DNA from: Hoeflea marina
GTDB taxonomy: Bacteria > Pseudomonadota > Alphaproteobacteria > Rhizobiales > Rhizobiaceae
Direction: 5' to 3'
Assembly: GCF_003182275.1 (NCBI RefSeq)
Contig: NZ_QGTR01000001.1
Coordinates: forward strand, 1,036,215-1,100,214
Length of the DNA: 64,000 bases
Positions 45,607 to 53,495 of this stretch are shown piece after piece (position 1 is the first letter of the stretch; each line of letters opens with the position of its first letter). The notes under the pieces are model-generated. The model searched no databases. It saw only the letters and a program-made list of their open reading frames with translations, and had not been told where the DNA came from. The position numbers were made by a program, and so were the translations under genes.

Positions 45607-45643
45607 TTGCGTAACTCCTCGATGTTCAATATTTGTTCTCATC
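45607..45643 (+). promoter_or_regulatory. LexA-controlled promoter of dinB
   Basis: GTTCAATATTTGTTC (45624-45638) is a perfect alphaproteobacterial SOS box, GTTC-N7-GTTC. It covers a likely -10 (TATTTG, 45630-45635), 17 bases from a -35 (TTGCGT, 45607-45612). The predicted transcript start coincides with the ATG at 45644, so the mRNA may be leaderless. Confidence 0.85.
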
Positions 45644-46948
45644 ATGTCCGCAGCTGCTCCCGCCCCCGGCTTTTGCCGCGATTGCCTGGTCCCCGCGCGC
45701 GCGGAGGGGCGGCGCTGCCATGCCTGCGGCAGCCCGAGGCTGGTGCGCCATGCGGAGATCGACACGCTGACACTTGCCCATGTCGACTGCGACGCATTCT
45801 ATGCCACTGTCGAGAAGCGGGACAATCCGGCATTGATCGACAAGCCGGTGATCATCGGCGGCGGCAAGCGCGGCGTCGTCTCCACCTGTTGCTACATCGC
45901 CCGCATCCATGGCGTGCGCTCGGCGATGCCGATGTTCAAGGCGCTGGAGGCCTGTCCCGAGGCGGTGGTGATCCGCCCGGACATGGAAAAATACGTCCGT
46001 GTCGGCCGCCAGGTGCGCCAGATGATGGGTGACCTGACGCCGTTGGTGCAGCCGATCTCCATCGACGAGGCCTTCCTCGACCTCACCGGCACGGCGCTCT
46101 TGCACAAGGAGACGGCAGCCCGAACGCTGGCACGCTTCGCGGCCCGGGTGGAAAGCGAGATCGGCATCACGCTTTCGGTCGGGCTCTCCTACTGCAAGTT
46201 TCTCGCCAAGGTGGCATCCGATCTCGACAAGCCGCGCGGCTATTCGGTCATCGGCAGGGCCGAGGCGCTGGCCTTTCTGGCTCCGAAACCTGTCTCGTTG
46301 ATCTGGGGCGTCGGCAAGGCCTTCACTGCGACCCTCGAGCGCGACGGCATCCGCACCATCGGCCAGTTGCAGCACATGGAGCTGACAGCGCTGATGCGCT
46401 CCTACGGGGTCATGGGCAAACGGCTCTATCATCTCGCCCGGGGCGAGGACGACCGCACGGTGCATGCCAACGATCCCGCCAAGAGCGTGTCGGCTGAAAC
46501 CACCTTCAACACCGATCTCTCCCGCGCGGAAGATCTGGTGCCGATCCTCAGGCAATTGTCGGAGAAGGTCTCGGCGCGGCTCAAGTCAGGCGGCCACGCC
46601 GGCCAGACCGTGGTGCTCAAGCTCAAGACCGCCGACTTCAAGAGCCGCACCCGCAACCACAAGCTCGACGATCCGACGATGCTCGCCGACCGGATCTTCC
46701 GCACCGGCCATCATCTGCTGCTGCGCGAGCTCGACGGCGCGCGCTTTCGCCTCATCGGCATCGGCGTCACCGATCTCGCCGATCCGGCTCAGGCCGACCC
46801 GCCCGATCTGGTCGATCCCGCGGCCGCCCGCCGCGCCAGCGTCGAGACGGCGATGGACAAGGTGCGGGCCAGGTTCGGCCGCGACATCGTCGAGACAGGC
46901 TACACCTTCGGCAAGGGTCTGCGCCGCCGACCGGATGTGGAGGAGTGA
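45644..46948 (+). CDS. dinB: DNA polymerase IV (Y family)
   Basis: 434 residues from the ATG at 45644. Error-prone translesion polymerase of the SOS response. An N-terminal four-Cys zinc ribbon ([19 protein letters not shown]) precedes the palm: [19 protein letters not shown], then [11 protein letters not shown] with the catalytic Asp-Glu, and [15 protein letters not shown] in the thumb. The zinc-ribbon extension is typical of rhizobial DinB. A LexA box abuts the start. Confidence 0.95.
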
Positions 46949-47239: not shown

Positions 47240-50812
<3,573 letters not shown>

Positions 50813-51489
50813 GCCTGCCCGATATCCCGTTTGAGTCCCAAGCAGCGATTGTCGGGAGCGGGGAAGGCAAAGTCCATAGCAAATCCGCCCCGCGCCGAAC
50901 TGTGCAGGGGTTTCCGGAACCTGGCGTCCATCGGCCCCGATCACACGCCCGGGCGCGGCCGAAAATGCGCAATCGCTTCAGCCCGTTTTGGGAGCGCACG
51001 CACATTACCGCCGGCGGCAGGCAGCGGCGTCATAGCGAGGCGAACAACGCCCCCACCAAGGCAACGCCATCGAAGAAGGGCACCAGACGCAGACGATGTC
51101 GCGCCGGTCGGGCCGCGCCCGGGCGGGCCGAAGCCTTGCCCAAGCCGGGGAGATCAGGCAAGGCGCCGCCCCGGCACACCGACCGTCCGGGGGACGGCGG
51201 AGCGCAGGAGGGCTTCGAGCAGCAAATCGGAATGCCCGCATCCGGGCGGGACGAATTCCGCCTGGGTTCCTCACGCCGACGCGCTCCGGGCATATGCCAC
51301 ACATCCGGCCCGGGCCGGCGCAAGACGGTTCGCATTCCGTCAGCAAGCCGGCGCCGCCTCGGCGGCGCCCGGCAAAAATGCTGGCTCTGGCATTGGCGGC
51401 GCCAGAGCCGCCCTGCACCACAGCTTTGGCCGCGGCCGGGCATCCGCCGGCGCTTCCGGGGCGGGAACCTGCCGGAGCGCCGTACGAAC
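50813..51489. other. 677-base stretch without a recognised gene
   Basis: Very GC-rich with several long frames on both strands, all Arg/Pro/Ala-rich and unlike known proteins. It holds the dnaE promoter. I see no RNA gene or repeat family here. Confidence 0.5.
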
Positions 51490-51576
51490 TCAGATGGCCA
51501 TGACGACCACGGCGAAGCTGGCTACGAACAAGGACATGGAAACAAAAGCGGCGAGGTCGCGGGCGAATGCAGGCAT
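51490..51576 (-). CDS. SOS-induced 28-residue membrane peptide, SidA-like in size and control
   Basis: 28 residues from the ATG at 51576, with AGGAG seven bases upstream. A short charged start (MPAFARDLAAF) is followed by one hydrophobic helix (MSLFVASFAVVVMAI) that reaches the C-terminus. It has a full LexA-type promoter (51607-51635). Caulobacter SidA, a 29-residue SOS-induced inner-membrane protein, blocks division through FtsW/FtsN; a similar role is inferred from size, topology and control, not from sequence identity. Frame extensions upstream would cross the promoter, so the short form is preferred. Confidence 0.75.
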   Translation of the reverse strand: MPAFARDLAAFVSMSLFVASFAVVVMAI

Positions 51577-51606
51577 GGGTATCTCCTGTTTTTCCGTTAT
51601 GTATCT

Positions 51607-51635
51607 TCTATGTTCCTTTTTTGTTCTGTTGTCAA
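51607..51635 (-). promoter_or_regulatory. LexA-controlled promoter of the 28-residue peptide
   Basis: On the minus strand, a perfect -35 TTGACA (51630-51635) and a -10 CATAGA (51607-51612) are 17 bases apart. The spacer holds GAACAAAAAAGGAAC (51612-51626), the reverse complement of GTTC-N7-GTTC, so LexA would block RNA polymerase directly. Confidence 0.85.
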
Positions 51636-52136
51636 CTCGTGTATTGGGGCATTCCGGCAGTTCCGGTACTCCTCTCCGGCTCCTGCACTCTGGTCCCGAT
51701 CGATCAGGCATCGGCCTCGCCGCAGCCCGATCGAAGCGTGCCGGCCCGACGGCCCGATGGACCGGCGATGACAGTGCGGATCAAGAGGGCCTTCCCGACG
51801 ACGGCGACATCTCGCATCAAGTCCTGCATGGCGGGATGCAGCCGGCCGATCCGGCTTCGCGGTCAGGTGCATGCCCGGCGCGGCATCCCCCCAGCGCTGT
51901 GATCGGACGGCGGAGTTCGCCCGCCAGGCAGGCGCTTTTGCGATTCGGCCACTGTTTGAAGCCGGATCAGCGGCGCTTCCTCTGCTTTCTGGTTATGGAG
52001 AATCTGTGCGGCATTCGATATCCTCGGGGGATCGCCTGACTTTGCGAAGCCATGACGGAACAGGGTTGCGAACGGCGCCTCGCCTGGTTTCGTCACCGAG
52101 ACCGCTTACGCATTCGATCCGACGGGGAGATCCGAC
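51636..52136. other. intergenic region before the 452-residue gene
   Basis: About 500 bases between the SOS promoter and the next gene. Short frames show no family signature. GGGGAG at the right edge is the ribosome site of the next gene. Confidence 0.45.
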
Positions 52137-53495
52137 ATGCCGTCATATAACGACTTGAATGGACTGATGAAATTCCTCACCCGCCCGGAATGGAGCGCGT
52201 GTTTCCAGTCGGTGTTCGATGCGCATTTTGGCCCTGCCCTCGATGCGGAAGACATGGTCTTCGACGACATTGTCGATATCCTCGGCGAGCACTGGGCCTT
52301 GACGCTGTGGGGCTGCGCTTTCGAGGATTTCCTGACACAGAACTTCGCGGTCGAAGGCGGCAACTTCGTCGATGAGTATCTCAAGCGGCGCGGCTGGAAG
52401 GAAAGTGCCCAGACGAAAGCCTACATGCGGGCATTGCGGATCTCAGTGATGAGCCTCTACGAGGTCAGTGACATCTTGCCTGGCGAATCGTTCATGGCCC
52501 GCGACCTCCTTCGCGGCGGCGAGCCGATCACCGTCACGGAGGGAACGGCCACCAAGACCCTGAAGCAATGGGATCGGATCGCCGGCCGGATCGTGCCGAT
52601 GATGGGCAGGAACGTGCTGTCCGGCAGTGTTCTGCCGTTCACCCAGCCGGCCGCCGACGAACTGATCGAGGACCTGCGTTTTGTGCTCAAGAAAAGGCAG
52701 GCAGACAGGAAGCGGTTTGTCAGGAGCGAGGATCTGAAAGCGGAAGCGTCCATGTTCACCGTTGCCTGGCTGTTCGACACGCTTACGCGGTCGGTCGCGG
52801 CGGCGGCTCCGGAAATGCGGAACTCTGACGGCGACGATCTGCTCTTCCACGATGTGAGGTTTCCAGTCGCTTCCGGTGCGACCGACAAACGCATTGCGGC
52901 CCGTCTCAACACCATTACCACCCTGGAGCAGGCAAGCCCCACCTTCTGGAACTGGCTGCGGGAGGAGCAAGCCGAAGACAATCAAGCGCCCGGCACCGGC
53001 AGCAGTATCGACAGCATCCTGGAGAGTGGACTGCGCGTGCTTGGAAATGTCGAGATCAAGGGACGCTTCGTGAAGTTGTCGGCCAATTCGGCACGACGTG
53101 CAAGCAGTGGGGCGGACCTGATCCGACACGCGCTCGGCGATCTCGTCGGTCCTCCGCTCACGGAGATCCGCACCGTAGAGCAGTTGATGGCGGATGCTCC
53201 CGCCCAGGATCAGGTCGAGACCGGATCAGATATCCCGCCCGAGATCTACGAGCAGGTTGTCCACCGCCACATGGACCGGCAATATCGCGACACCCTCGAC
53301 CAACCCGTCGGCATGCTCGACAACAAGACGCCGCGGCAGATGGCAAAGACCGCAAAGGGCCGCGAGAAAGTCGCCAACTGGATCAAGTATCTTGAGAACC
53401 AGACCGCGAAGCGGCCCAATTCCGCCGACACGGTGGCCACCTACAGCTTCGACTGGATGTGGCATGAACTGGGTGTCGCGGATCTGCGCCGGTGA
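52137..53495 (+). CDS. conserved hypothetical protein, 452 residues
   Basis: GGGGAG precedes the ATG by six bases. Soluble, mostly helical, no signal peptide. Early signature FDDIVDILGEHWALTLWGCAFEDFL; a central part with several Arg/Lys clusters; and a C-terminal motif (GMLDNKTPRQMAKTAKGREK, then VANWIKYLENQ) that resembles the MbcA/ParS/Xre antitoxin C-terminus or a stretch found near SEC-C modules. No catalytic residues can be assigned. It stands alone on the plus strand before hupB. Function unknown. Confidence 0.75.
   Translation: MPSYNDLNGLMKFLTRPEWSACFQSVFDAHFGPALDAEDMVFDDIVDILGEHWALTLWGCAFEDFLTQNFAVEGGNFVDEYLKRRGWKESAQTKAYMRALRISVMSLYEVSDILPGESFMARDLLRGGEPITVTEGTATKTLKQWDRIAGRIVPMMGRNVLSGSVLPFTQPAADELIEDLRFVLKKRQADRKRFVRSEDLKAEASMFTVAWLFDTLTRSVAAAAPEMRNSDGDDLLFHDVRFPVASGATDKRIAARLNTITTLEQASPTFWNWLREEQAEDNQAPGTGSSIDSILESGLRVLGNVEIKGRFVKLSANSARRASSGADLIRHALGDLVGPPLTEIRTVEQLMADAPAQDQVETGSDIPPEIYEQVVHRHMDRQYRDTLDQPVGMLDNKTPRQMAKTAKGREKVANWIKYLENQTAKRPNSADTVATYSFDWMWHELGVADLRR

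Follow-up and report, generated by a model that had tools for sequence, protein, structure and literature searches.

SulA-type inhibitors are, to our knowledge, not widely conserved beyond the gammaproteobacteria. The closest described counterpart of the gene considered here is SidA of Caulobacter, a 29-aa inner-membrane protein reported to block division through FtsW (PMC4211646); the filamentation of ΔlexA cells has been ascribed to sidA (PMC12700426), which corresponds to CCNA_02004 (PMC10769358). DidA, also of Caulobacter, is likewise described as a small single-helix membrane inhibitor that acts after DNA damage (PMC4211646), but at 71 aa it is longer, is SOS-independent (controlled by DriD) and acts through FtsN, and it is set apart from the present peptide by this description. 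The Gram-positive SOS division inhibitors YneA, SosA, ChiZ and DivS share the working principle, but as unrelated and longer proteins are also set apart by description; AlphaFold 3 models place SidA, YneA, SosA and ChiZ on FtsW with low confidence (PMC13396833). The literature that we searched contained nothing joining SidA to the Rhizobiales.

We analysed a stretch of 64,000 nucleotides of the Hoeflea marina genome, hereafter the window, which contains a 28-codon gene upstream of dnaE (Table 1). The initial annotation had credited this gene with a perfect -35 element, an exact LexA box inside a 17-base spacer and an AGGAG seven bases before the ATG; all three elements were found as described, apart from the distance of the AGGAG, which is 6 bases. 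The -10 element is putative and weak, and many relatives carry CAAAAT or similar at this position, as judged by eye; a strict promoter scan called no promoter at the peptide gene because the -10 is poor. The product, MPAFARDLAAFVSMSLFVASFAVVVMAI, was correctly anticipated to have a charged N-terminus and one membrane helix: R6 and D7 lie in a short N-terminus, and a single hydrophobic helix then reaches the C-terminus. Judged by hydropathy alone, this helix scores 2.44 on the Kyte–Doolittle scale over 19 residues, as compared with 2.08 for SidA of C. vibrioides, and in size (28 aa versus ∼29 aa) and in its single predicted membrane helix the peptide resembles the SidA class. Neither Pfam nor NCBIfam contained a family matching it. 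Divergent from the peptide gene, a 452-residue frame at 52137-53495 (+) matched nothing in Pfam, NCBIfam or PADLOC.

Table 1. Coordinates of features in the window, in order of position.
Feature	Position	Strand	Remarks
Second plus-strand LexA box	45624-45638	+	Ends 5 bases before dinB
dinB, DNA polymerase IV	45644-46948	+	Converges on dnaE
dnaE, DNA polymerase III alpha subunit (replicative)	47240-50812	-	Next gene downstream of the peptide gene; ATG at 50812, GTG at 50944 possible
Terminator-like hairpin	51383-51409	-	10 pairs, then T-rich; between peptide gene and dnaE
28-codon peptide gene	51490-51576	-	Open reading frame and conservation; TGA stop 51492-51490, ATG at 51576
AGGAG ribosome-binding site	51583-51587	-	6 bases before ATG
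Putative weak -10, CATAGA	51607-51612	-	Assigned by eye
LexA box GAACAAAAAAGGAAC	51612-51626	-	GAAC-N7-GAAC (GTTC-N7-GTTC on the plus strand); within promoter spacer; retained in relatives
Spacer between -35 and -10	51629-51613	-	17 bases
-35, TTGACA	51630-51635	-	From sequence; TTGAC upstream in 27/30 relatives

Taken alone, the box could be a product of chance. The motif occurs three times in the window against 1.42 expected, a count reached in 20 of 100 shuffles, and the genome, of 5.26 Mb, contains a single TTGAC joined to an exact box and likewise a single copy of the reversed control pattern. The case therefore rests on comparison with relatives, and this comparison refutes the idea that an open frame and a box lie side by side by accident, which now retains practically no probability. 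Of 199 genomes of the family, 84 matched the peptide (E up to 1) and 115 gave no match; copies in S. meliloti and Shinella assign this family to the Rhizobiaceae. The 30 best of the family matches were fetched as loci, and none has an internal stop in the matched stretch. Upstream of the peptide, the exact box is present in 29 of these 30 loci, and all 30 have it if one mismatch is allowed, as compared with 0 and 2 for the control pattern; it stands right after TTGAC and is often doubled. The initial annotation had named synonymous-biased change and retention of the box in relatives as tests beforehand, and both came out as predicted: for the former, nine non-overlapping close pairs gave 47.0 synonymous changes over 182.3 sites against 18.0 nonsynonymous changes over 558.7 sites, a pN/pS of 0.12 (binomial p 8e-16), with one pair lacking synonymous change and one having a ratio of 0.33. 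Together with the conserved gene order described below, these data speak against chance, and the 28-codon frame is a real gene.

Other boxes in the genome support the reading of the motif as a LexA operator. Boxes number 146 in the whole genome, as compared with 56 for the reversed control, and the LexA DNA-binding domain has a single match, with a box 58 bases upstream of it. As is characteristic of the alphaproteobacterial LexA regulon, the GTTC-N7-GTTC box of the window peptide overlaps the promoter and is retained in relatives. By this anatomy the peptide gene is predicted to be LexA-controlled, with LexA binding the box and the gene being induced upon damage. As dinB also has a box, dnaE lies between two likely SOS genes, dinB on one side and the peptide gene on the other. 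Elsewhere in the genome, at C1:516342-534389, ten copies of GAAC-N7-GAAC lie on one strand within 18 kb; this stretch has the look of a repeat within coding sequence or of a cluster under SOS control.

The two orders were connected only after Caulobacteraceae genomes had been located with the C. crescentus PleD sequence from the PDB as query. A profile search of Caulobacteraceae matched 50 of 89 genomes (E up to 1) and yielded 29-residue frames behind LexA boxes; eight of the loci L131–L160 (L131, L147, L148 and L154–L158) were omitted before counts were made. L131 is a frame that ends in a 29-residue SidA-like C-terminus (E 6.7e-7) and has no exact LexA box. A scan of named genomes yielded 93 relatives, of which 80 Caulobacterales loci were kept, three of them labelled C. 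vibrioides; since some identical peptides are shared by the PleD-located and the named sets, these are not independent. In C. vibrioides DSM 9893 (L204), whose PleD shows 100% identity to that of the C. crescentus structure, a 29-aa peptide encoded just upstream of dnaE, with a LexA box in the promoter, matches the NCBI SidA model NF033228 with an E of 2e-20 and 72.4 bits (cut-off 35); Pfam has no family for it. The same model, as a positive control, recognized 17 of 17 Caulobacteraceae peptides (A4). Of the 80 named loci, 45 carry the exact LexA box; if one mismatch is allowed, a box is present in all 79 that have enough sequence (control, 8/79).

That the peptide gene adjoins dnaE had been noted from the start; dnaE is indeed the next downstream gene on the same strand. 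When dnaE was placed in the loci by tblastn with the window's DnaE as query, it lay downstream of the peptide and in the same orientation in 149 of 157 loci: 30/30 in Rhizobiaceae, 18/25 in further Hyphomicrobiales (18/18 in the other families of the order), 22/22 in PleD-located Caulobacteraceae and 79/80 in the named loci, the last two sets overlapping in part. Before counting, five of the loci L031–L059 were omitted, namely L031–L034, which are Rhizobiaceae and mostly repeats of loci already in the set, and L045, a long frame with neither exact box nor dnaE. The sole named locus without dnaE, L211, has only 66 bases available after the peptide. The remaining seven loci without a nearby dnaE (1.5 kb flank) all belong to one Rhizobiaceae genus, g73 (L042, L043, L053, L055, L056, L058 and L059); each keeps an exact LexA box (7/7), often doubled, and in one genome of this genus, G073, the best DnaE match sits on another contig. 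The arrangement of the window, upstream of dnaE and on the same strand, is that of the C. vibrioides loci L192, L204 and L229, on which the adjacency of sidA and dnaE rests for CCNA_02004 of strain NA1000 too. On the other side of the peptide, lolD was seen upstream in 16/30 Rhizobiaceae, 16/25 further Hyphomicrobiales, 10/22 PleD-located and 39/80 named loci, many of which are too short; near the window peptide neither lolC nor lolD was found, and dnaE is retained. No conserved terminator separates peptide and dnaE, a hairpin being present in 4/30 Rhizobiaceae and 0/79 Caulobacter loci.

The same arrangement is seen in S. meliloti. Strain Ak57 carries between lolD and dnaE a 28-aa frame, MADFVRDLAAFASMSLFIVSISVIALGL, with two overlapping (tandem) LexA boxes; PLSDB's incomplete table lists no gene in this gap, in which other short frames are also present. 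A frame described as sORF25, located in the dnaE1 5'-UTR of S. meliloti, is among 48 translated novel frames, and uORF roles have been suggested (PMC10117765). By its position upstream of dnaE1, the S. meliloti copy of the peptide is probably sORF25; the literature searched contains no link of sORF25 to LexA, SOS or SidA. Another entry, L241 (CP090106.1), is labelled S. meliloti plasmid pSymB; at 3.7 Mb, and carrying dnaE and proline--tRNA ligase, it is probably the chromosome.

A short translated frame in such a place could be a leader peptide or uORF, the LexA promoter serving dnaE and translation of the frame tuning dnaE expression. This would accord with the near-constant position directly upstream of dnaE, with the small number of intervening terminators and with the 5'-UTR location of sORF25, but it would not account for selection at the amino-acid level or for the conserved membrane helix. 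Furthermore, the seven g73 loci retain both the peptide and its exact box although dnaE is missing from the flank, a terminator-like hairpin intervenes in the window, and SidA, the counterpart in Caulobacter, is known to inhibit in trans. We therefore think it unlikely that the frame serves as a leader.

The relation of the peptide to SidA was assessed by profile comparison. Profiles of the 30 Rhizobiaceae peptides and of 17 SidA peptides were aligned by hhalign over 18 columns (91.8%, E 7e-7); none of 300 permutations of the SidA columns did as well, the best scoring 17.0 as compared with 26.7 for the true alignment. Shared features are the size (28 and 29 residues), the LexA box, the spot directly upstream of dnaE, an N-terminal basic/acidic pair (RD or RE) followed by one membrane helix, and the conserved residues S13 and F17. 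The differences are also clear: the window peptide comes from another order, lacks the FVWM motif and the C-terminal part of SidA, is identical to C. vibrioides SidA at only 9 of 28 positions in direct comparison, and is missed by NF033228, which matched 0/30 Rhizobiaceae (A1) and 0/32 order-wide (A2) peptides even at E 10. Profile and position thus both point to orthology, although the gene falls outside the curated family; we regard its assignment as a diverged SidA ortholog as well supported. A weak hit of the S. meliloti peptide to the Pfam family DUF5345 (E 0.021, 15.4 bits against a threshold of 27) was taken as chance and rejected.

The likeness to SidA in size, topology and LexA-box control proposed in the initial annotation thus stands, topology being judged by hydropathy, whereas its view that there was no obvious likeness in sequence is superseded by the profile alignment. 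Its suggestion of a new SOS division inhibitor or another checkpoint peptide is also supported, but the gene is better called a diverged SidA ortholog than a new, unrelated inhibitor, because it has the same place upstream of dnaE, the same LexA control and an alignable sequence. An independent SOS checkpoint peptide might nevertheless have arisen at the same place, its likeness to SidA reflecting the convergence of two short helices, as the shortness of the sequences, their low pairwise identity and the failure of the SidA model would allow. Position, strand and control are, however, alike in two orders, the permutation control gave no equal score, and intermediate peptides occur both in further families of the window's order and elsewhere among the alphaproteobacteria; we consider convergence very improbable.

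We believe it likely that the gene encodes a diverged SidA ortholog which is made in the SOS response and inhibits the septal FtsW/FtsI/FtsN machinery. In an undamaged cell, LexA bound at the box, between the -35 and -10 elements, would block the promoter. Upon damage, RecA on single-stranded DNA would bring about cleavage of LexA, freeing a strong promoter from which the 28-residue peptide would be made. This would insert in the inner membrane as a single helix, most likely with its N-terminus inside, and might bind the septal peptidoglycan synthase complex (FtsW with FtsI/FtsN) and hold it inactive, so that constriction would be delayed until the damage had been repaired. Small size, a single hydrophobic helix and LexA control would also suit an SOS membrane toxin of the TisB/DinQ type, which would be under antisense RNA control and depolarize the membrane rather than hit the divisome; but the peptide is alignable with SidA and occupies the same locus, and in the region 50900-52200 no Rfam family reached threshold, the one match lying far below it, which makes a toxin of this type an improbable explanation.

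A SidA-type inhibitor would appear to provide a rhizobial-type SOS division checkpoint, previously unrecognized in that group. Rhizobia grow at the pole, and in symbiosis they undergo filamentation and endoreduplication. If correct, this reading offers a ready candidate for an SOS division checkpoint in the model species S. meliloti as well as in other rhizobia and related bacteria, and gives a reason for the presence of a translated short frame in the dnaE1 5'-UTR.

A direct search with the peptides gave little across the class: with A1, matches at E 0.1 came from 11 of 289 genomes, the window's own and ten with weak matches that have no exact box, while with A2 the 196 of 387 genomes that matched at E 3 were mostly noise, and of nine fetched loci inspected, L101, L105 and L115 were kept. 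We also surveyed the regions upstream of dnaE in 100 of the 188 genomes that gave a DnaE match (the upper part by DnaE score, a few rows being skipped by hand; one region, L256, has 228 bases only). An exact box followed by a membrane frame of 22-60 residues was found in 16/100 regions, as compared with 0/100 on the reverse strand and 1/2000 shuffles; a looser survey, allowing one mismatch and filtering for the charged pair, gave 12/100, with 1/100 and 2/2000 in the respective controls. Among the 16 hits, two (L250 and L316) are from the order to which the window belongs, and some come in pairs from a single genus; outside that order, 14/98 regions have a box and then a short membrane frame. 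Many of the frames have a K/R-D pair before the helix, often K-D outside the window's order. Homology of the most distant frames is not proven. If the present reading is right, operator and neighbourhood can trace membrane micropeptides that are too short for routine homology search.

More tentatively, a LexA-controlled SidA-type peptide upstream of dnaE may be ancestral to much of the Alphaproteobacteria. Because the gap mostly lacks a terminator, the SOS promoter would also raise dnaE, so that a single damage-induced unit would both arrest the septum and provide replicative polymerase; this extension we hold to be doubtful. Absence of the peptide elsewhere may reflect loss, relocation or a diverged box. 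Among genomes of the family that were negative in the peptide search, a unit of box and frame was nevertheless present upstream of dnaE in 10/40 (control, 0/40).
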